Assembly: GCA_025928375.1 (NCBI GenBank)
Contig: JAICJP010000007.1
Coordinates: forward strand, 1 to 33,667
Reading direction: 5' to 3'
DNA length: 33,667 nucleotides
Origin: Candidatus Sulfotelmatobacter sp.
Lineage (GTDB): Bacteria > Acidobacteriota > Terriglobia > Terriglobales > Acidobacteriaceae
Within the stretch, counting starts at the first letter, position 1. Each line of letters begins with the position of its first letter. A model generated the notes under the pieces. The model was given only the letters and a program-made list of their open reading frames with translations, had not been told where the DNA came from and searched no databases. Position numbers and translations under genes: made by a program. Positions 23,782 to 33,667 of the stretch are shown in pieces.

Positions 23782-24161
23782 CCACGGGGACAGCGAACGA
23801 TTCAGTTGCGATTCGCCAAGGAGGCGTGCAACTCGACAAATAAAAGCCCATCGTGAATAGGGTTAGCCCATGACGGCGCCTGTTTCTGTCAGTTGTTCAA
23901 AAAAGAGCAAATCACTCACTCAGACCGGTTTACGCTCGATTTCGGGCATAGGTACCGATAGACAGGCTTCTAGAAAGTGAAAGAGAGTATTCCCAGTTCG
24001 CCCGCGAGCCATGTCTATGAACAAGCGAGTGTGCCAACTGTGTGCAGAATTCATCCCGGCAACGCGGGCGACTTAAGAGAACCACCGACTTACTGTCGGT
24101 CAGCCGAAAAGTATGGTTCTGCTGGCTTTTTCGGCGCTCCAGTGCGTGCCAGAGTTAGCTC
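23782..24161. other. non-coding stretch with two adjacent hairpins
   Basis: No recognisable gene was found in these 380 bases. Two stem-loops stand side by side: ACCGAC/GTCGGT at 24084-24100 and GCCGAAAAG/CTTTTTCGGC (one bulge) at 24103-24135. The second lies just downstream of the HugZ-like gene on its strand and could stabilise or end that transcript, although no T-run follows on the minus strand. Confidence 0.45.
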
Positions 24162-24647
24162 TCATTGGGCCTGCGAGTGAGCTTGTTGCACCATTTCCAC
24201 AAGCATTTTCCGAGTTTCAGCCGGATTGCTTACCTCCCTCGAGAAAGCGATGCGGGTGCCACGCATTCGGTAAGCCGTTTTCAAGCGGACATGAAAGCCG
24301 AGGCGATCTACTGCGGTCATCGTCGCTTCCGTCGAGTCGATGTGAGCAAATGTCCGTGCAATCATGATGAGCGCATCCTTGTGGTCGGTGTTCATGTGCT
24401 GAATGATTTCGGTCATTGAGTCTGCGAGAGGGTCGGGTTGACTGCGGTCATAGTCGGAGGCAGATACCCAGCCCATCACTCCGAAGGCTCCCACGTAATA
24501 AACATCGACGACGTCCATGCGGTAAAAAGAAGAGTCTTCAAAGTCTACCCAATATCTGCTGTTGGCATGACGCTCGAGGTAGAGCTTGCGCGCCTCGGCC
24601 AACTCGGGCTTCCGTACTGGCAGAAGATTTCCTAGCAGCGTTACCAT
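24162..24647 (-). CDS. HugZ-like / DUF2470 protein, N-terminally shortened
   Basis: The 161-residue product has the C-terminal part of pyridoxamine-phosphate-oxidase-like haem-utilisation proteins: MVTLLGNLLPV, ARKLYLERH, FRMDVVDVYYVGAFG-like strands and, from about residue 75, a DUF2470 domain (MTEIIQHMNTDHKDALIMIA). Full-length family members are about 230-260 residues and carry another 80-100 residues of split-barrel before the VTLLG strand. Here translation begins exactly at that strand. The codons upstream in frame lack family motifs and reach a stop about 34 codons back. It may be a decayed gene or a short variant. The complete family binds flavin or haem; this version may not. A tRNA-Phe fragment lies 180 bases upstream. 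Confidence 0.68.
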   Translation of the reverse strand: MVTLLGNLLPVRKPELAEARKLYLERHANSRYWVDFEDSSFYRMDVVDVYYVGAFGVMGWVSASDYDRSQPDPLADSMTEIIQHMNTDHKDALIMIARTFAHIDSTEATMTAVDRLGFHVRLKTAYRMRGTRIAFSREVSNPAETRKMLVEMVQQAHSQAQ

Positions 24648-24824
24648 CGTTGCTCCAAGTGGGCTAATTGGACGACGCCAAAAGCTTCTGGGCTGCGCTC
24701 TACCAATGCTATCCGGCCTGTTTCGAGGTGATTAGCGCCAAGGTTACGAGCTCCTCGCCCTCCAATTGGGCTGTCATGTGAATCATGAAGAAGGGAAGGG
24801 AAGTGACTGAAATTCTTTAAGTTG

Positions 24825-24876
24825 TGGTGGCCAGGGAGGGAGTTGAACCCCCGACGCCAGCCTTTTCAGGGCTGGA
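24825..24876 (-). tRNA. 3' half of tRNA-Phe (GAA), probable attachment-site remnant
   Basis: On the minus strand there is an anticodon stem (CAGCC/GGCTG) with loop CTGAAAA (anticodon GAA at 24867-24865), variable loop GCGTC, T-arm GGGGG-TTCAACT-CCCTC, 3' acceptor strand CCTGGCC, discriminator A and encoded CCA. All fit tRNA-Phe. The 5' part is missing: upstream of position 26 neither a D-arm nor the expected GGCCAGG acceptor strand follows at the right distance. A 3' half with CCA and no 5' half is what integration of a mobile element into a tRNA gene leaves at one end. It is not expected to give a functional tRNA. Confidence 0.7.
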
Positions 24877-24910
24877 TACAGCCAGCCTATCTCCCTTTTT
24901 GGTCAGCTAC

Positions 24911-25066
24911 TTAACGTGTCGAGGTGGCCACAGTTTTGTGACCACTCTGTGACCAGCGCCGATGTTCGCCTAAGCGTCGGCTGAACCGGCTGAACGAGGT
25001 CTGCGGAATCAGACCCTGTAGAGGGTTGCCATTCGAGGATTTACGCACTGGGCTTATCCTCTGCGA
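24911..25066 (-). pseudogene. possible integrase C-terminal tail next to the tRNA fragment
   Basis: A short open frame ends at a TAA at 24911, 35 bases before the tRNA-Phe 3' half, on the same strand. It ends in RRWSQSGHKTVATSTR, a type of tail I associate with tyrosine recombinases whose genes abut their attachment site. The catalytic Arg-His-Arg-Tyr region is not present: going upstream, an in-frame stop appears after about 50 codons. So at best this is a remnant. The assignment rests on position and a weak motif. Confidence 0.3.
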
Positions 25067-25260
25067 CTGAGCTTCTAATAATTAATCAACCGTCCGGCGA
25101 AACATGCCCCAGCATACTAATGGGGCGATGCATCGAAACCGCGGCTGCACTTCCATCTTCCTCGTTGGTGTAGCGGGGATGTTGCAGCTGGAGGTTACCA
25201 CTTGTACGAGCGCAACCGGAACCGAGTCCACAGTCGGTGTGGACGTTCCGTAGCGTGCTG
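25067..25260. other. upstream region of the histidine-kinase operon
   Basis: This stretch carries two stem-loops: GCCCCA/TGGGGC at about 25106-25126 and GTCCAC/GTGGAC at 25226-25244 with a 7-base loop. The second overlaps a possible GTG start (25237) of the kinase frame. No clear promoter pair could be fixed. Confidence 0.4.
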
Positions 25261-27072
25261 ATGAGAGTCACCCCTGCGCTCACAGCAGGTATCATCATGC
25301 TCATGGGAGGCAGAATCCGCCTTTGGATCATTGCAGCATCGGTGGCTGGACTTATCGCCCTAGCCGTTGTGAGCTGGTTGTCCTATCGCAACACCAAAGA
25401 ACTTATTGCTGCTAATGGGCGCCTCGCACAGGCGCACAAGCTGATTGAGGACCTTACCGCTCTGCACTTGCTGCTGGACGATGCCGAGTCCAGTTGCCGC
25501 GGCTATGCGTTGAGCGGGAAAGACGACTACCTCAAACCCTATGACGTAGCTCTTACCCAACTCGATATCACCACGCAAGTACTTGGGCATGATCTTGCGG
25601 ACGACCCGAATCGTTCCCGGCAGTTTCAGGAACTGGAACCGATCATCCAGGCTCGGCTGGAGCTGATGAAGGGACTTGTAGATGCGCGGCGAAAGCGCGG
25701 GTTTGAAGCTGCGGTTCGCGTGGTGCAATCGGACCGCGGAAAGAGACTCGCGGATGAAATCCGGCGAAGGATCTCAGCCATGCAAGCGGAAGAGCGGAAC
25801 GATCTGCTCGACCGAGAGAGGGAGTCAAGGGAGCGAGCACGTAGCACAATTCTTGTGGTCGGCGTGACCTGCCTGCTGGGTATCGCGCTGCTGCTCGCTG
25901 CTTCGGTCGTAATTTACAGACTCAACCGGCAGAGCGAAAAGGATCACCTTGCCCTGCAAAATGCGGAACGGATTCAGCGCACCATCCTCAACAGTGCCGC
26001 TTACAGCATGATCTCCACCGACCCCGCCGGATTGATCCAGCTGGCCAACGCGGCAGCGGAAAAGTGGCTCGGGTACACAGGCGCAGAACTAGCAGGAAAC
26101 ACCGTCACCATCGTACACGATGCTCGCGAGTTGCAGTCCCGGGGCGACCAGTTGACACGGGCCATGGGCATGCCCGTACCGGGCGACTATCAAGCCTTAG
26201 TCACAAAAGCGAGATATGGCGTGGCGGACGAATTCGAGTGTGCCTATATCCGAAAAGATGGCACGCGGTTTCCGGTGTTGCTCGCGGTGACGGCGCTACG
26301 CGGTGGAGATAATGATCTGGCCGGGTACCTGATGATCGCGGCTGATCTCAGCGATCGGCACGCCATGCGAAAAATGAAAGACGAGTTCGTGTCGGTTGTC
26401 AGCCACGAACTGAGGACGCCCCTCACGTCCATCAAAGGCGCGCTCGGACTTTTGGCGCGCGGCGTCACGGGCGCGCTGCCTCCGAAAGCGGATGAAATGG
26501 CGCAGATCGCTCTTACCAACGCTGACCGATTGAGCCGTTTAGTGGATGACATTCTCGATCTGCAGCGCATCGAATCGGGGCGAATCGCGATCGACATGCG
26601 GACATGCGACATCGCTGATCTCATGAGGCAATCCGTCGAATCCGTGCATTTGGTGGCCGAAGGCGAAGGCATAACGATCGCGATTTCCCCTTGCCAGGGG
26701 TCGATTAGAGCTGATCAGGAACGCATGGTACAGGCATTCGTCAACCTGCTCGGGAATGCCGTCAAGTTCTCGCGGCGCGGCGGCCGGATCGAGTTTGCAG
26801 CCGAGCGAACCGGCAGCATCGTGGTCTTTCGAGTTAGGGATGAAGGCCGAGGCATTCCGAAGGACAAGCTGGAAACAATTTTCGAGCGGTTCGAGCAGGT
26901 AGACGCTTCTGACGCGCGTGAAAAGGGGGGCACCGGCTTAGGTCTTGCGATCTGCCGGAGTATCGTGGAGCAACACGGCGGCCGCGTCTGGGCGGAGAGC
27001 GAACTCGGCCGGGGCAGTACATTCTGTGTGCAGTTGCCGCTTGCCGAAGCCGATGCCGTCACTGCAAGCTGA
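25261..27072 (+). CDS. sensor histidine kinase with CHASE3 and PAS domains
   Basis: Membrane-bound kinase of about 603 residues. A first membrane segment (LWIIAASVAGLIALAVVSWL) and a second (ILVVGVTCLLGIALLLAASVVIY) enclose a roughly 150-residue extracytoplasmic CHASE3-type domain with the typical DAESSCRGYALSGKDDYL. A PAS domain follows (ILNSAAYSMISTDPAGLIQLANAAAEKWLGY). Then comes HisKA with phospho-acceptor His in FVSVVSHELRTPLTSIKG, and HATPase with N-box NLLGNAVKFS, DEGRGIP, FERFEQ and GTGLGLAIC. There is no attached receiver domain. The start is uncertain: GTG 25237, ATG 25261 and ATG 25297 are all possible and none has a good ribosome site. It is the first gene of a four-gene phosphorelay; the signal is unknown. 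Confidence 0.9.
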   Translation: MRVTPALTAGIIMLMGGRIRLWIIAASVAGLIALAVVSWLSYRNTKELIAANGRLAQAHKLIEDLTALHLLLDDAESSCRGYALSGKDDYLKPYDVALTQLDITTQVLGHDLADDPNRSRQFQELEPIIQARLELMKGLVDARRKRGFEAAVRVVQSDRGKRLADEIRRRISAMQAEERNDLLDRERESRERARSTILVVGVTCLLGIALLLAASVVIYRLNRQSEKDHLALQNAERIQRTILNSAAYSMISTDPAGLIQLANAAAEKWLGYTGAELAGNTVTIVHDARELQSRGDQLTRAMGMPVPGDYQALVTKARYGVADEFECAYIRKDGTRFPVLLAVTALRGGDNDLAGYLMIAADLSDRHAMRKMKDEFVSVVSHELRTPLTSIKGALGLLARGVTGALPPKADEMAQIALTNADRLSRLVDDILDLQRIESGRIAIDMRTCDIADLMRQSVESVHLVAEGEGITIAISPCQGSIRADQERMVQAFVNLLGNAVKFSRRGGRIEFAAERTGSIVVFRVRDEGRGIPKDKLETIFERFEQVDASDAREKGGTGLGLAICRSIVEQHGGRVWAESELGRGSTFCVQLPLAEADAVTAS

Positions 27073-27089
27073 ATTGTTCTGGATTCACG

Positions 27090-27503
27090 ATGCCGAAAAC
27101 CGTGCTTGTGATCGACGATGATCGGGATATTCGAGAAGTAGCCAAGACCAGCCTGGAACTGGTGGGAGGCTTCATGGTCATTCTGGCCGATTCAGGGAAG
27201 AGCGGAGTGGACCTTGCGCAACAAGCAAGGCCGGACGCCATCATCCTGGACCTGATGATGCCCGACCTGGATGGACAACAGACTCTCGTCCAACTCAAGC
27301 AACTGCCCGAAACAGCCTCGATTCCCGTAATCATGCTGACGGCGAAGGTGCAGGCTAGCAAGAAGGAACTCGTCAGTAAAGGAGCCGCGGGCGTACTGGT
27401 TAAACCTTTTGATCCGATGCAATTATCCGATCAAGTTTGCGAAATATTGGGCTGGACTCTAACCGGGAAGGATGTGGGCCACGATGGCTCCCCAAAAGAG
27501 TGA
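27090..27503 (+). CDS. stand-alone response-regulator receiver protein
   Basis: Single CheY-like receiver of 137 residues with no output domain. Acidic pocket Asp10/Asp11, phospho-acceptor Asp54 (ILDLMMPDLDG), Thr84 (VIMLTAK) and Lys105 (GVLVKPFDP) are all in place. It starts 17 bases after the kinase stop and its 3' end overlaps the HPt gene by 20 bases. The likely role is the intermediate receiver in a phosphorelay: kinase to this protein, to the HPt protein, to the LuxR-type regulator. That order is inferred from gene content. Confidence 0.92.
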   Translation: MPKTVLVIDDDRDIREVAKTSLELVGGFMVILADSGKSGVDLAQQARPDAIILDLMMPDLDGQQTLVQLKQLPETASIPVIMLTAKVQASKKELVSKGAAGVLVKPFDPMQLSDQVCEILGWTLTGKDVGHDGSPKE

Positions 27504-27840
27504 CGAAGTTCGCTCAGCGCTGGAAAAAGTCTGGCTCAGCAGCAGGCCTGAGGCGTTGAGACGGCTAGCGACGCTGGAACGCTTTGCCGAAACCTTGCGT
27601 TCAGGGACCTCCGATCAGATGTCTTGGCAGAACGCCCTGTCGGCAGCCCACCGGCTTTCGGGTTCGCTCGGGATGTTTGGACTCAATGAAGCTTCTTCCT
27701 GTGCCGAAAAGATTGAGGCTCTGCTGGGAGACGGTCCAACACCGGACCTAGCGGCAACGGTCAGCCTGGTTGAGCGCCTGCGAATGCTGCTGGCACGAAC
27801 GCAAGCGTCTAGCAGAGAACCGCAGAGGCGCGATTCATGA
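27484..27840 (+). CDS. histidine phosphotransfer (HPt) domain protein
   Basis: A 118-residue, mostly helical protein carrying the HPt signature: His56 in SAAHRLSGSLGMFGL (pattern His-x-Leu-x-Gly-Ser), then EKIEALL. The open frame starts four codons earlier at 27472; I chose the ATG at 27484 because it begins a more typical MAPQKSDEV. It overlaps the receiver gene by 20 bases and the next regulator by 4 (ATGA), so all three are probably made together. It should shuttle phosphate from the lone receiver to the downstream response regulator. Confidence 0.85.
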   Translation: MAPQKSDEVRSALEKVWLSSRPEALRRLATLERFAETLRSGTSDQMSWQNALSAAHRLSGSLGMFGLNEASSCAEKIEALLGDGPTPDLAATVSLVERLRMLLARTQASSREPQRRDS

Positions 27841-28517
27841 AGCGTACAACCGTCAAGCCGGCCGTCGTTACAGTCTTGATCGCCGACGACGACCCAATCG
27901 TTCGCCAAGCAGTGCGATCCGTCCTTGATGTCTCAGGCGGGTTCAGGGTTGCGGGTGAAGCTGAAGATGGGAAGATGGCGGCCGAACTCGTCAAAGAAAC
28001 CGACCCCGACATTCTGCTTCTTGATCTGCTGATGCCGAACCTCCCCGGGTTGGAGGCGCTTCGAGCCATCACCACCGCTGGCTCGGAAGTCCGAACTATC
28101 CTGCTCTGCTCTGCCATCAGTGCCAAGCAGGTTTTGGAGGCATTACAACTGGGCGCGCGAGGAGTGATTTTGAAAAAGAGGGTAGCGGAACTGGTACCGG
28201 CGCTCGAAGCGGTGATGAGAGGCCAATACTGGATCGAGAGTCAAAGCGTATCCAACGTGGTGCAGATCGTGCAACAGCTGGCCGCGGCGAACACCCAACC
28301 TCCCCAGCCGCAGAACCGCTTTGGCCTAACCGCCCGCGAGACCGAGATCATCTCGTTCATCACGCAGGGCTGCATGAACCGCGACATTGCCAACTCGCTC
28401 TCCATCACGGAGGAGACGGTCAAGCGCCATCTCACCAACATCTTCAACAAAGTAGGGATGTCGAACCGCCTCGAACTAGCCCTGTTTGCCATTGAGCACG
28501 GACTAGTTCGAAAGTGA
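27837..28517 (+). CDS. LuxR/NarL-family response regulator
   Basis: DNA-binding response regulator of 226 residues. The receiver has Asp17-Asp19 and phospho-acceptor Asp63 (ILLLDLLMPNLPG). The C-terminal LuxR-type helix-turn-helix has LTARETEIISFITQGCMNRD and ITEETVKRHLTNIFNKVGMSNR. It is the output of the phosphorelay encoded upstream, joined to the HPt gene by an ATGA overlap. Its targets are unknown, but the adjacent envelope/stress genes are obvious candidates. Its 3' end overlaps the convergent lipocalin gene by 15 bases. Confidence 0.93.
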   Translation: MKRTTVKPAVVTVLIADDDPIVRQAVRSVLDVSGGFRVAGEAEDGKMAAELVKETDPDILLLDLLMPNLPGLEALRAITTAGSEVRTILLCSAISAKQVLEALQLGARGVILKKRVAELVPALEAVMRGQYWIESQSVSNVVQIVQQLAAANTQPPQPQNRFGLTARETEIISFITQGCMNRDIANSLSITEETVKRHLTNIFNKVGMSNRLELALFAIEHGLVRK

Positions 28518-29075
28518 CCTCGCTGCGGGTTGCCCGCTGCGGGGCGACTGACGAGTCTTGATCAGTTTTTCAGGATCGTAGCTTGCCGCCCGAATTTGCT
28601 CCACGATCTGCTCGTAGGTCGTTCCATCCATCTCTGGTGTGCGGCTCAGGATCCAGAGATATTTCCGCCTCGGTTCCCCGACAATGGCATAGCGGTAATC
28701 CGAATCAAGGCCAATCACCCAGTAGTCACCGTAAAAAGGCCAAAAGAAGGTCACCCTCAGTTTGGCATTGGTTGTCTTGTCCGCGATCTTGGCCGTGCCG
28801 CGCGCCGTCTTTATCTTTCCGTCCTTCTGACGGCACGAGTTCACGACCAGAACTTTGCCGTCTTTGCGGAGCGTGTACGCGGCGGTGGTATCGGATTGGC
28901 AATCCCGCTGGAAACGGTTGGGATAGCGCGCGATCTCGTACCAGGTACCCGTATACCGGCTGAGATCCACGCTGTCGACCGTCCGCAACGGCGGACTAGT
29001 TGTAGATTTGGCCGAGCCCGAACCCAGAGAAACCATGAATATCACGCCAACTACCGCTGCCGTCATCAGGTTCAT
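28503..29075 (-). CDS. bacterial lipocalin (Blc-like), exported
   Basis: A 190-residue lipocalin with the family signature YTGTWYEIARYPNRFQRDC after an N-terminal export segment (AAVVGVIFMVSLGSGSA). The typical later strands VTFFWPFYGDYWVIGLDSDY and VGEPRRKYLWILSRTP are present. Unlike E. coli Blc there is no lipobox cysteine, so it is probably a soluble periplasmic protein. Lipocalins of this group bind fatty acids or lysophospholipids and are linked to envelope stress. I chose ATG 29075 over GTG 29084 because AAGGAGG is 11-12 bases from the ATG but only about 2 from the GTG. It is convergent with the LuxR-type regulator gene and divergent from the fasciclin gene. Confidence 0.9.
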   Translation of the reverse strand: MNLMTAAVVGVIFMVSLGSGSAKSTTSPPLRTVDSVDLSRYTGTWYEIARYPNRFQRDCQSDTTAAYTLRKDGKVLVVNSCRQKDGKIKTARGTAKIADKTTNAKLRVTFFWPFYGDYWVIGLDSDYRYAIVGEPRRKYLWILSRTPEMDGTTYEQIVEQIRAASYDPEKLIKTRQSPRSGQPAARSLSN

Positions 29076-29250
29076 GACTGTCACTCCCTCCTTATAGACG
29101 CTTCTTTAGATGGTGCGGCCAGCGGAAATGCCCTACGACCAAAGTCGTAGGGGCCTGCTACCCGCGCGGAATTTCCAGTCACAGCGCTTCCGGCGATACT
29201 CGCAATCGTTGATGGGCGAGGCACCCAAATTCAAGATGAGGAGAAATTCC

Positions 29251-30195
29251 ATGAAGAGACTCTACATGGCATTTGTGGCGACCGTGCTGATGAGCATCGG
29301 CGCATTCGCCAGTCACACCCGCCAGGACATCGTTGACACCGCTGTCCAGGCGGGATCTTTTAACACTCTGGCACAGGCGCTGAAAGCGGCGGACCTGGTT
29401 GACACCCTGAAAGGGCAGGGACCGTTCACCGTGTTCGCGCCGACGGATGAGGCATTCCGCAAACTGCCGCCAGGCACTGTGGAAGTGCTGCTGAAGCCAG
29501 AGAACAAGGAACAGCTGCGTTCGATCCTGACCTACCACGTGGTACCAGGAAGGGTCACCGCGAGCGATGTGGTCAAGCTGACGTCAGCCAAGACCGTGAG
29601 CGGACAGGAAGTCCGCATCAGCGTTCTTAAGGGCGTAGTGCGGGTGAACGACGCCAAAGTTACGAAGACCGACCTTGCCGCTAGCAACGGCCTGATTCAC
29701 GTGGTCGATCGCGTGATTGTTCCACCGATGGGCGAGGTGTCGCAAGTGTCAAAGATTGACGACATGCTGGCCGACTTCGAAAGCAAGGCGATCGAAACTC
29801 GGCGTGATGCTGCGATGCTGGAGTCGAAGAGGCGCAACCCGCAACTCAATTGGCAGACCCATGCCGATAAGCTCAGCGTCATGAAGCAGCACATTAACGA
29901 GATGGGCAAGATGCTGGCGGAACTGGAGGGGATGAAGTCCAAGGCCACGGTGTTCCAGGAGAAGGCAATCGAAACTGCACGCCCACCCCTCGAAGACTTG
30001 GCGCAGCGTGTGGAGAAGGGTATTAACTGGATCAACGAAGATCGGCGGAGTATCACCAAAGCCGAGTACAAGGACAACCTGCACGGGATTTGGAGCAGCG
30101 CGGATCAGCTTTACCGGAACGTGGACACCATCATCGACTACCACGAAGCCCGGATGCGTCTGCACGAACTCGCGGAGGAACCGGTTGCGCGTTAA
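29251..30195 (+). CDS. exported fasciclin-domain protein with C-terminal helical extension
   Basis: Protein of 314 residues. An export signal ([15 protein letters not shown]) is followed by one fasciclin (FAS1) domain at about 24-158 with [44 protein letters not shown] and [17 protein letters not shown]1 domains mediate adhesion. The remaining 150 residues are charged and helical ([42 protein letters not shown]) and I do not recognise them. The start is ATG 29251, with GATGAGGAGA about 9 bases ahead; the longer frame from 29110 is not needed. A hairpin lies between this gene and the BON gene. Confidence 0.88.
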
Positions 30196-30213
30196 GGCGC
30201 GCTGCCAAAACCA

Positions 30214-30243
30214 GGGTGGGTGTGGGCAGGCCCACACTCACCC
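30214..30243 (+). terminator. stem-loop between the fasciclin and BON genes
   Basis: GGGTGGGTGTGGGC pairs with GCCCACACTCACCC (13 of 14 pairs) around a 2-base AG spacer. No T-run follows, so this may be an RNA-stability or processing hairpin rather than an intrinsic terminator. Confidence 0.45.
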
Positions 30244-30285
30244 AAGTTGTAACTCGATCAAATCTATAAGGAGAGGAATACGAAT

Positions 30286-31035
30286 ATGAAATCGATTGCG
30301 ATGTGGATGTTGCTCGTAGCGCTGGCCCTACCGGTCAGCGCTCAACAAAAAAGTGAAGGTCGCTACAACCAGCAGATTCGGGCTAAAGCCGCAGAGGAAC
30401 TGGGCAAACGCGACAAATTCAAAGGGGTCACGGCCACGGTGGAAGACGGCATCGTGACCTTGACCGGGAACGTGGAACTGTACATCGACAAGGTAGATGC
30501 CGAGAAGCGCGTGCGCAAGATCCAGAACGCGGATGGAGTTCGCAATCACATCGAGGTCGCCAGCAGCGTTCACGATGAGATCCTGCGCGATCAGCTCTCG
30601 AACAAACTGCGCTATGACCGAATCGGGTATGGGATTGTCTTCAACAATCTGACCTTGAGTGTTGAGAACGGGGTTGCAACGGTGGCAGGCAAGGTAAGGG
30701 ACTACCCGGACCGCGACTCAGCCATTGCCATCGTGGAGACCACGCCCGGAGTGAAGGACGTAATCGATGAGATCGAAGTGGCGCCGACCTCTATTAACGA
30801 TGACCGCCTGCGCATCGCGCTGGCCCGCTCGATCTATGGCAACTCTGCGCTGCAGAAGTATGCCATCGATCCGCAAGCACCGATTCGCATTGTGGTGGAA
30901 AACGGCAATGTCGAACTTCATGGTGTTGTGACGAACAAACTGGACAAGCAGGTGGCTTATACGCAGGCCAGCTCTGTCCCAGGGGTGTTCAGCGTGAAGA
31001 ACAACATCATGATTGCGTCGGAGATGAGCCGATAA
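30286..31035 (+). CDS. exported triple-BON-domain protein
   Basis: A 249-residue protein. The signal peptide is residues 1-19 (MWMLLVALALPVSA then QQK). Three BON repeats follow at about 25-92, 97-165 and 170-245, each with the pattern of a Gly/Val-rich strand pair: VEDGIVTLTGNVELYIDK, VENGVATVAGKVRDYPDRD and VENGNVELHGVVTNKLDK. BON domains bind phospholipid and occur in osmotically induced or envelope-stability proteins such as OsmY. AGGAGAGG stands about 9 bases before the ATG. It follows the fasciclin gene by 90 bases and precedes the membrane protease; a shared envelope role is inferred. Confidence 0.9.
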   Translation: MKSIAMWMLLVALALPVSAQQKSEGRYNQQIRAKAAEELGKRDKFKGVTATVEDGIVTLTGNVELYIDKVDAEKRVRKIQNADGVRNHIEVASSVHDEILRDQLSNKLRYDRIGYGIVFNNLTLSVENGVATVAGKVRDYPDRDSAIAIVETTPGVKDVIDEIEVAPTSINDDRLRIALARSIYGNSALQKYAIDPQAPIRIVVENGNVELHGVVTNKLDKQVAYTQASSVPGVFSVKNNIMIASEMSR

Positions 31036-31044
31036 ACCAAAGCC

Positions 31045-31070
31045 AGGCCCCGCCGGAGAAGGCGGGGCCT
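31045..31070 (+). terminator. GC-rich hairpin between the BON and M50 genes
   Basis: A perfect 10-base stem (AGGCCCCGCC / GGCGGGGCCT) with a 6-base GGAGAA loop lies 10 bases after the BON stop and ends 25 bases before the M50 start. No T-run follows, so it may lower, but not abolish, read-through. Confidence 0.5.
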
Positions 31071-31095
31071 GTCGCTAAGCGGGGAGGATAGAACA

Positions 31096-32235
31096 ATGAA
31101 ATGGTCATGGAAGATCGGCACGTTCGCTGGAATTGCGGTTTACGCGCACGCCACATTTGTCCTGTTACTGGGCTGGATCGCGCTCACTCACTGGATGCAA
31201 TACCAGAGTTTCCTTGCAACGCTACAGGGCGTTGGTTTCATACTCGCACTCTTTGGGTGTGTGGTTCTGCACGAATATGGTCATGCCTTAGCAGCGCGTA
31301 AGTTTGGCATCGCCACGAAAGACATCACGCTGCTGCCCATCGGTGGCTTGGCCCGCTTGGAGCGAATACCGGATAAACCGGACCAGGAACTCTGGGTTGC
31401 ACTGGCTGGACCGGCGGTCAATGTTGTGATCGCAGCCCTGCTGGCGGCGTACTTATCCCTGACCGGCCATTTTCAACCGGTACAGCAAATCGGGCTAACC
31501 CACGGGGTGTTCCTAGAGCGCGTGATGTTCGCCAATCTGTTTCTGGTGGGCTTCAACATGATCCCGGCCTTCCCCATGGACGGCGGTCGGGTTCTCAGGG
31601 CGCTTCTGGCGAAGCGGATGGAATATGCCAGGGCCACGCAGATCGCGGCCAGTGTGGGCCAGGGACTTGCCTTCGTATTCGGATTTCTCGGTCTGTTCAC
31701 GAATCCGTTCCTAGTGTTCATTGCTTTCTTTGTCTGGATCGGCGCGGCACAGGAGGCAGCGATCGCGGAGACGAAGTCGGTGCTGGGATCCGTTTCTGCG
31801 AAGGACGCGATGATACCGGAGTTCCGCACCCTGTCTCCGCGGGATGAGCTATCGCAGGCCGTGAAGCTCGTCTTGAACGGCTGGCAACAGGACTTTCCGG
31901 TGGTGGATCAAGGACGGGTCGTCGGCATGCTCCTGCGCTCGGACATGATCGCAACCCTGGCAACCGGAGGCGTCCACTCCACCGTTGAACGTACGATGCG
32001 ACGGGATTTCCCGGTGGCTTCGCCGTCTGAACCTGTGCCATCGGTCTTCGCGCGGTTGCATGAGGCCGAGGTTGCGACTGTACCCATTGTCGAAGAGGGC
32101 AGGTTGGTCGGCGTCATCACCTTGGAGAACATGACCGAGTACATGATGATCCATGCTGCCTTGGACAACGCGAAGAAGAAGAGCAATGGCCGAGCCGAGA
32201 TGGAGTCGTTCAATTTAGGGGCTCAGCGCTTCTGA
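31096..32235 (+). CDS. site-2-protease-like M50 metallopeptidase with CBS pair
   Basis: Intramembrane zinc protease of 379 residues. The motif HEYGH (His59, Glu60, His63) and the second motif NMIPAFPMDGGR (Asp162) supply the zinc ligands, set within about six hydrophobic segments. From about residue 235 two CBS domains follow (AKDAMIPEFRTLSPRDELSQ and ERTMRRDFPVASPSEP), which usually bind adenine nucleotides and tune activity. This is the Rv2625c/SpoIVFB-like subgroup, not RseP, because a PDZ domain is absent. GGGGAGG is about 8 bases before the ATG. The substrate is unknown; neighbouring envelope genes suggest a stress role. Confidence 0.92.
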   Translation: MKWSWKIGTFAGIAVYAHATFVLLLGWIALTHWMQYQSFLATLQGVGFILALFGCVVLHEYGHALAARKFGIATKDITLLPIGGLARLERIPDKPDQELWVALAGPAVNVVIAALLAAYLSLTGHFQPVQQIGLTHGVFLERVMFANLFLVGFNMIPAFPMDGGRVLRALLAKRMEYARATQIAASVGQGLAFVFGFLGLFTNPFLVFIAFFVWIGAAQEAAIAETKSVLGSVSAKDAMIPEFRTLSPRDELSQAVKLVLNGWQQDFPVVDQGRVVGMLLRSDMIATLATGGVHSTVERTMRRDFPVASPSEPVPSVFARLHEAEVATVPIVEEGRLVGVITLENMTEYMMIHAALDNAKKKSNGRAEMESFNLGAQRF

Positions 32236-32632: not shown

Positions 32633-33667
32633 ATGACTGGCTTGTCACTGTTTCCTTTTGTCGATTACTGGTGGTTCTACGGCGCCTTCACGCTCTTTGT
32701 CTTAGGCATGCTGGCGCTGGATTTAGGCGTCTTCCACCGCCGGGCGCATGAAGTCTCGGCGCGCGAGGCCCTTTCTTGGAGTGTGGTTTGGACCGCCTTG
32801 GCGCTCGGGTTTGCTGCCCTTCTCTACGGTTATTGCCTGTGGAAGTTCCCGATCGATCCACGCCTGGGCAGCAATCCAGGGGCGATGGACGGAAGTCTAG
32901 CCTGGCGGGCTACTCTGGAGTTCTTGACTGGCTTTCTCATCGAGAAGTCACTCGCCTTGGACAACATCTTTGTTTTTGTCGTGATCTTTCAATTCTTTGC
33001 CATTCCCGCGAAGCACCAGCATCGCATTCTGTTCTTCGGCATCTTGGGCGCATTGTTGTTGCGCGTGATCTTTATCGCTCTTGGTGCGGTGCTTCTGCAA
33101 TACAAGGCGGTAGTCATCTTCTTTGGAGTATTGCTGATAGCGACGGGAGCGAAGATCCTGTTCGCGCCGGTAAAGCCGATTGACCCAGAGGCGAACCTGG
33201 TTATCCGCCTGCTGCGCAGGTTTCTTCCGGTCACATCCCAGGTCAACGACCAACACTTCTTTCGCCGCGTTGTGGGAAAGCTGCACGCGACGCCCTTGCT
33301 GGTGGCCCTGGTATTCATTGAAGTGTCCGACATCATATTTGCCGTGGACTCTGTGCCGGCGATCTTTGCCATCACCAGCGAGCCATTGATCGTATTCACT
33401 TCGAACGTTTTCGCAATATTGGGAATGCGCGCGCTCTATTTCCTCCTCGCTGGTGTGGCGCAGAAATTCCACCTGCTCAAGTACGCGCTGGGGACGATTC
33501 TCGTGTTCGTAGGCTTGAAGATGGCCTGGCTGAACGAGGCTTTCGGCGGCAAGTTCCCGATCAGTTGGTCGCTGGCCATCATTGCTTTCATCCTTATCTT
33601 CTTCTTTGTTCTGTCCTTGACTAGTTCATCGCGCGCCGCGTCAGCGAAACGTGAGAAATTGCGCTGA
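32633..33667 (+). CDS. TerC/Alx-family integral membrane protein
   Basis: A 344-residue membrane protein with about nine hydrophobic segments. The family-typical LALDNIFVFVVIFQFFAIP, with its intramembrane Asp, is in the first half, and FIEVSDIIFAVDSVPAIFAI in the second. Members of this family (Alx, TerC) are linked to manganese export, alkaline pH or tellurium resistance. The gene is complete, the TGA being the last three bases of the window. It begins 93 bases after the PGPGW-type gene with only a weak ribosome site. Cargo is not shown by sequence. Confidence 0.93.
   Translation: MTGLSLFPFVDYWWFYGAFTLFVLGMLALDLGVFHRRAHEVSAREALSWSVVWTALALGFAALLYGYCLWKFPIDPRLGSNPGAMDGSLAWRATLEFLTGFLIEKSLALDNIFVFVVIFQFFAIPAKHQHRILFFGILGALLLRVIFIALGAVLLQYKAVVIFFGVLLIATGAKILFAPVKPIDPEANLVIRLLRRFLPVTSQVNDQHFFRRVVGKLHATPLLVALVFIEVSDIIFAVDSVPAIFAITSEPLIVFTSNVFAILGMRALYFLLAGVAQKFHLLKYALGTILVFVGLKMAWLNEAFGGKFPISWSLAIIAFILIFFFVLSLTSSSRAASAKREKLR

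Follow-up and report, generated by a model that had tools for sequence, protein, structure and literature searches.

The window analysed here, a stretch of DNA of 33,667 nucleotides, is a whole contig (C319) of a Candidatus Sulfotelmatobacter sp. genome assembled from a metagenome (G000; 4.49 Mb in 484 contigs, 84% complete). From lower to higher coordinates, its minus strand carries a gene with a CREG beta-barrel and a DUF2470 domain, as assigned by Pfam (24162..24647), a putative left end of a neighbouring island (24670..24824) that closes with a degenerate tRNA-Phe-like piece (24670-24705), the 3' half of a tRNA-Phe gene from the anticodon loop to CCA (24825..24874), and a conserved block (24875..24981) that runs from GCCGACGCTTAGGCG to the core of the attachment site and contains TGGTCACA twice (24948-24955 and 24937-24944), the copies being spaced by 11 bp. 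Further to the right, the plus strand is occupied by an accessory operon (25237..32235), in which Pfam recognized a CHASE3-PAS kinase, a response regulator, an Hpt protein, a LuxR-type regulator and fasciclin, BON and M50-CBS proteins, and by a gene of the TerC family (32633..33667, also by Pfam) that runs off the contig.

The first-pass annotation of this DNA had described a displaced tRNA-Phe 3' half, and that description was borne out. The half, which forms the core of the right-end attachment site, is 96% identical over 50 bp to the intact tRNA-Phe that ARAGORN located on the minus strand of another contig (C153:1376-1451), the single intact one found in this incomplete genome; the longest exact run that the two have in common, a shared block of the kind the annotation had proposed to look for, is 24 bp. 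The two mismatches are both sides of one T-stem pair, G..C in the half and C..G in the intact gene. Since the genomes compared contain 23 intact tRNA-Phe genes, 20 with one form of this pair and 3 with the other, derivation of the half from a working gene fits. A 36-nt pattern of the 3' end, searched in the genome with up to three mismatches, occurred at three sites, namely the half in the window, a second half (C1:17968-18003) and the intact gene, as against none for the backward control, which argues that the half is not a product of chance. A complete tRNA was not found at this position, as the annotation had anticipated: ARAGORN reported zero tRNAs in the window, and Rfam gave no match there that reached its gathering score. 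With a relaxed threshold, Rfam listed three matches between 24600 and 25300, of 13-22 bits and each under its own gathering score; because that scan omitted a further match, which scored lower, overlapped and belonged to the same clan (tmRNA/tRNA), a weak partial tRNA match may exist at the half. A complete tRNA-Phe, such as had been expected beyond the window, does exist in the genome, on the separate contig C153.

Adjacent to the half lies a block that recurs as a unit in related genomes. Matches to a 221-bp query that included the half were sought in 61 genomes, an 86-bp query limited to the block was matched in 18 of 300 genomes, and an exact pattern of the block hit 17 stretches in genome_contigs; the same exact pattern, searched with a phage origin in mind, hit zero stretches in viral_contigs, where records near the window's genome may be absent. 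Once identical copies had been dropped, 29 distinct copies of a 35-bp anchor (24936-24970) were left, 22 of which continue into a tRNA-Phe 3' end whose last 12 bases start 90-101 bp past the anchor, while the other seven are truncated or degenerate. The consensus of the 28 copies long enough for this comparison drops to background directly upstream of GCCGACG, and their upstream DNA (>=149 bp) falls into 22 groups, 17 of them single copies; the remaining five groups (11 of the 28 copies) have some DNA in common, from 39 bp to 789 bp, and one of these groups contains an ORF with a nucleotidyltransferase domain. Among public records that bear the block, the labels are Acidobacteria, Acidobacteriaceae, Terriglobales, Terriglobia, Candidatus Sulfotelmatobacter and, once, Verrucomicrobia, on the strength of which the host is placed in the Terriglobales.

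Some individual copies of the block are worth recording in their own right. About 740 bp upstream of it are common to G033:C8:5653-6330, L052:81-707 and L076, and this shared DNA holds similar ORFs in G033 and L052, the one in G033 carrying the nucleotidyltransferase domain. Two truncated copies from different genera, G000:C365:14376 (L030) and G150:C2:21655 (L079), have an identical 789 bp upstream, owing either to recent transfer or to a common contaminant contig. The block was also seen in metagenome-assembled genomes labelled Verrucomicrobia and Acidobacteria gp5 (L054, L055), which reflects either wide transfer or misbinned contigs.

A short frame ending WSQSGHKTVATSTR beside the half had initially been taken for the tail of an integrase. 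The frame is indeed present, on the same strand as the half; coding by it is unsupported. It stays mostly open inside the block because the DNA there is conserved, one-base differences near the start shift it, and the frames before and after the block differ between copies, so that the peptide is most plausibly a chance by-product of an end that does not code. Moreover, an integrase ORF was found within 400 bp upstream of none of the 20 block-bearing halves, as far as the contigs reach, those of G290, G256:C78 and L059:7699 ending less than 400 bp upstream of the half. The conservation at the DNA level, the 22 upstream contexts in 28 copies and this 0/20 count led us to reject the integrase tail in favour of a conserved DNA end-block with repeats spaced by 11 bp. 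The same results weigh on the fuller version of that reading, in which a single old island, bordered by ordinary chromosome on its left, would have had its integrase gene decay to a short tail beside the half. Loss of an integrase is thinkable here, as G033:C8:15397 and G028:C115 each have an integrase ORF, oriented like the half, whose end lies a short way ahead of the repeats and the half. However, the 29 block copies are alike as DNA and their consensus falls away directly upstream, and the left side of the half, as described below, has a left-end-like piece together with a permease gene of very restricted distribution; we regard this version as quite unlikely.

The TGGTCACA repeats of the block are most likely arm-type integrase sites, a proposal founded on what is generally known of tyrosine integrases. 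When a repeat pair was defined as a perfect 7-mer pair with a period of 10-12 and sought in windows of 110 bp, two duplicate contigs having been removed beforehand, such pairs occurred upstream of halves in 25 of 39 windows compared with 599 of 20000 random windows (3.0%). By class, 17 of the 20 block-bearing halves, whose windows are homologous and hence non-independent, and eight of the 19 other halves had a pair, two of these eight not being arm-like (G033:C202, and G027:C14:9723, which has another pair that is arm-like). Of 61 windows downstream of tRNA-Phe 3' ends, 19 had a pair; at the left end in the window itself, none is clear. The motif varies by element and includes TGTTCC, CCCACGAT, CAGTCCGC, TTACCCGCAG and GGTCACA, among others.

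How such elements come to lie beside a tRNA-Phe half is documented by relatives. In G134 (8 contigs, 100% complete), a single contig carries, in this order, an intact tRNA-Phe, GGTCACA, an integrase gene (Pfam Phage_integrase), cargo, GGTCACA repeats and a half, the element measuring 30,761 bp from the tRNA end to the 50-bp half. In G178, a genome of the same genus, the sequence that immediately follows the tRNA can be aligned, starting at base one, with that which immediately follows the half in G134 (83% over 585 bp), which indicates that G178 is free of the G134 element; the DNA before the tRNA is 73% identical between the two over 598 bp, and the G134 half is identical to the 50 bp at the 3' end of the G178 tRNA (100%). 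This pair shows an insertion placed exactly at the 3' end of tRNA-Phe and marked by a 50-bp half, and the difference between the two genomes is either a gain in G134 or a loss in G178. The G178 site holds another element with its own integrase, whose DNA is 71% like that of the G134 integrase. At its right end, the G134 element resembles the block in the window, with GGCAAACACCGAC versus GGCGAACATCGGC before the repeats; otherwise only the tRNA half is common to the DNA of the element and of the window. Of its ORFs, ten were scanned with Pfam, one being the integrase and the cargo including KaiC, response-regulator, Crp-type and phospholipase C domains. A similar layout with a different motif is seen in G304:C38, where TGTTCC repeats follow an intact tRNA-Phe and recur at the opposite end, behind an integrase.

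By analogy with the layout of the G134 element, the half in the window most probably represents the right end (attR) of an island targeted to tRNA-Phe that extends toward higher coordinates, in agreement with the direction proposed at first. The operon on that side, previously suggested to lie inside the island, behaves as accessory DNA: the kinase has a match at E<=1e-60 in one of 36 congeners (G022), as compared with 24 of 36 for the DUF2470 gene on the left. The gene order from the kinase to the M50-CBS protein is common to the window and G022:C15, for which the search with the 221-bp query reported no tRNA-Phe half and all Rfam matches were under the gathering score. The TerC-family gene, for which no match was seen in the 17 loci compared, is probably inside the island as well. 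No integrase was identified by Pfam among 19 ORFs of the window, where the contig stops within the island, nor were integration or transfer genes seen by Pfam in the 8.7 kb of the island at hand. In a comparison of ten proteins with PHROGs, which likewise bore on a phage origin, integrase families were hit by three integrases and kinase or unknown-function families by the kinase; a cargo protein had a hit in an unknown family, and the other five had no match. In the gap between the right-end block and the kinase gene, a weak match to the nadA riboswitch family was noted on the minus strand (25143-25189; 22 bits with a gathering score of 37.5, E 0.02).

The DNA on the left of the half resembles the left end of another island, a point missed at first. 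The piece at 24670-24705 is a degenerate tRNA-Phe, from the D arm to the variable loop, located just before the DUF2470 gene, with which the genes left of the junction begin. Comparable pieces follow six other tRNA-Phe 3' ends at a distance of 112-120 bp (C1, G031, G033:C8:15397, G326, L061 and G027:C82), and because the copy in G027:C82 follows an intact tRNA-Phe, the piece most likely marks an element's left end. In C1, G031, G326 and L061 the right-end block is followed by the tRNA-like left end, in the same order as in the window; outside the tRNA-like piece, the likeness of the window's left end to the others is weak. The genes further left are themselves unevenly distributed: three of the 24 congeneric matches to the DUF2470 gene are fragments, homology to G012 is limited to this gene (24136-24662), and the permease further left has no match at E<=1e-120 in any of the 36 congeners and has matches in three more distant genomes, so that both sides of the half look accessory. 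The left side is thus probably the left end of another island, and the half a junction in a tandem array. The tRNA-Phe-like piece keeps this near-constant spacing of 112-120 bp in seven loci, the window included.

With a good deal of confidence, we therefore interpret window positions 24670-24981 as the junction of two islands integrated site-specifically at tRNA-Phe. An element that carries a tRNA-Phe 3' half in its attachment site would recombine with the host tRNA-Phe near the anticodon by means of a tyrosine integrase, which would bind the GGTCACA repeats; the recombination would rebuild the tRNA gene and push the old 3' half to the far end of the element. Here that far end would be the half at 24825-24874, beside the right-end block with its two GGTCACA repeats, the element itself being on the higher-coordinate side and the lower-coordinate side beginning with the left end of another element, in the manner of a tandem array. 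The island would have lost its integrase and would rely on others to move, and the array would join the intact tRNA-Phe on C153.

Were the junction an artefact, the repeated half and block would have led the assembly to join DNA of two places or of two organisms. The assembly is metagenomic and in 484 contigs, and in relatives some contigs have a tRNA-Phe half as their first or last feature (G029:C18, G029:C65, G030:C53); such repeats seem to break assemblies and thereby to hide arrays. On the other hand, the longest exact runs with the genome's other copies are the 24 bp shared with C153 and 33 bp with C1, and the succession of block and tRNA-like left end recurs in four other loci, which makes a false join very improbable. 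That the block is a dispersed repeat, spread for example by a transposon, with an incidental tRNA piece and no attachment site, is hardly credible: the block does occur in many genomes and seven of 29 copies lack the tRNA-Phe 3' end, but the G134/G178 insertion is placed exactly at the tRNA-Phe 3' end with its 50-bp half, and different tRNA-Phe elements have the same layout with other repeats.

Support for the notion of a junction between islands comes also from the islands that could be read from end to end. Five of them end in the block, and in none was an integrase found, either by phmmer (five seeds, frames of at least 50 aa, E<=1e-5) or among 25 hand-chosen ORFs submitted to Pfam, which covered 5/9 of the ORFs of at least 110 aa in G033 and 5/6 in L061. 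These islands are those of G015:C9 (7.8 kb, with metal efflux), L059 (4.4 kb), L061, which is the same as G256:C296 (6.0 kb, with dynamin, Usp and a Na/H exchanger), G202:C173 (4.8 kb, measured as far as an intact tRNA-Phe because the island has lost its own half, with a nitroreductase) and G033:C8 (9.9 kb, with a TonB plug and an E1-E2 ATPase); the left end is of the CAGTCCGC type in three and tRNA-like in two. This count suggests that the island in the window, too, is probably a decayed, cis-mobilizable-like element, which may be mobile. Two or three halves lie on one contig in G022, G027, G033, G011 and G015. A point against this reading is that left and right repeats, compared by eye, agree in only three of 14 complete intervals (G134, G304 and one in G022), so that many intervals look composite rather than like single intact elements.

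The place probably adds one more case to the tRNA-targeted islands that accrete in tandem, a kind whose principles are well known; the candidate novelties, which may prove to be new, are the host group, the end-block and the tRNA-like left end. In the open-licence literature we found no paper on tRNA-Phe islands in Acidobacteria, which does not prove that none exists. According to the passages on Islander drawn upon here (PMC4383910), tRNA-gene islands are bounded on one side by the intact gene and on the other by a displaced 3' fragment that is oriented like it, sites centred on the anticodon form one described class, and tandem arrays are described; the window departs from that layout in having its intact tRNA-Phe on another contig. 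Islander, as presented in those passages, accepts only candidates that bear an integrase, whereas none was found in five of five readable block islands. The parts considered of a report on the ssrA islands of Dehalococcoides (PMC3146451) describe tandem islands bounded by repeats of the RNA-gene 3' end, with conserved adjacent DNA and with 15 islands devoid of an integration module. Our islands are like these in their arrays, their 3'-end repeats, the conserved DNA beside the repeat and the members without integration genes, but in that account the target is the tmRNA, the recombinase is of the serine family and the repeat is 20 bp. The island in the window may also be akin to the CIMEs, formed by decay and accretion, as outlined in an excerpt of PMC5704250, where attachment sites are kept, integration genes are lost and elements lie in tandem; by comparison, it is known from its right end only, the other end being outside the contig. 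Additive flexible islands at tRNA genes, as far as the relevant sections of PMC4119200 and PMC10872708 go, share with the islands described here successive cassettes at a tRNA target, 3'-end repeats and metal efflux cargo; they differ in belonging to other phyla and using other tRNA genes, and those sections are without conserved end-blocks or tRNA-like left ends. Tycheposons, as described in the section used of PMC10872708, are alike in their tRNA border, tyrosine recombinase and varied cargo.

In fragmented genomes, the end-block together with a tRNA-Phe half offers a checkable border mark for islands. Such a mark is useful for the abundant and hard-to-grow soil acidobacteria, in which integrase-less islands are missed by tools that require an integrase, such as Islander in the passages cited above (PMC4383910), and it places signalling and metal-handling operons on apparently exchangeable DNA.

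The integrases that might serve such islands were sought across the genomes. One integrase family was represented by 28 loci in 22 of 300 genomes, with repeats often after the integrase stop codon beside tRNA-Phe or tRNA-Ala(cgc). In four of the 28 loci, as judged by eye (L150, L155, L168 and L177), GGTCACA stands next to the integrase stop codon at tRNA-Phe, with one clear copy in L155 and an uncertain frame in L177; several integrase ends among the loci examined were guessed by a simple rule. This family was commoner in block-bearing genomes (6/18 versus 16/282, P=0.0008), as was its GGTCACA type (2/4, P=0.019), both by tests chosen post hoc. G000 itself has no match to the family at E<=1e-80; none of its nine tyrosine-recombinase matches is on C319, C153 or C1, and no GGTCACA pair was seen at these nine loci of a genome that is 84% complete. 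Among the elements inspected, we found no integrase-bearing island that ends in exactly the window's block, nor one with a GGTCACA-type integrase at one end and the exact block at the other; the islands that combine a CAGTCCGC left end with an integrase are cut off by the ends of their contigs. A more ambitious proposal, which we consider unlikely as a whole, would make of these observations a cassette system of the Terriglobales: a unit of ~150 bp, composed of arm repeats and the tRNA-Phe half, would be the working end, the cargo would vary, and cassettes without an integrase would be moved in trans by the GGTCACA-type integrases of some genomes into growing tRNA-Phe arrays, much like an integron built on tRNA halves. 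The pairing of integrases and repeat motifs could let integrase specificity be read from sequence.

Other tRNA genes were encountered in the course of these searches. Members of the same integrase family lie at tRNA-Ala(cgc) or its 3' half in several genomes (L164-L167, L169-L173 and L176), and further tyrosine-recombinase matches of G000 are near tRNA-Lys, tRNA-Met, tRNA-Glu and tRNA-SeC (L199, L200, L201 and L203, on C111, C427, C258 and C213).
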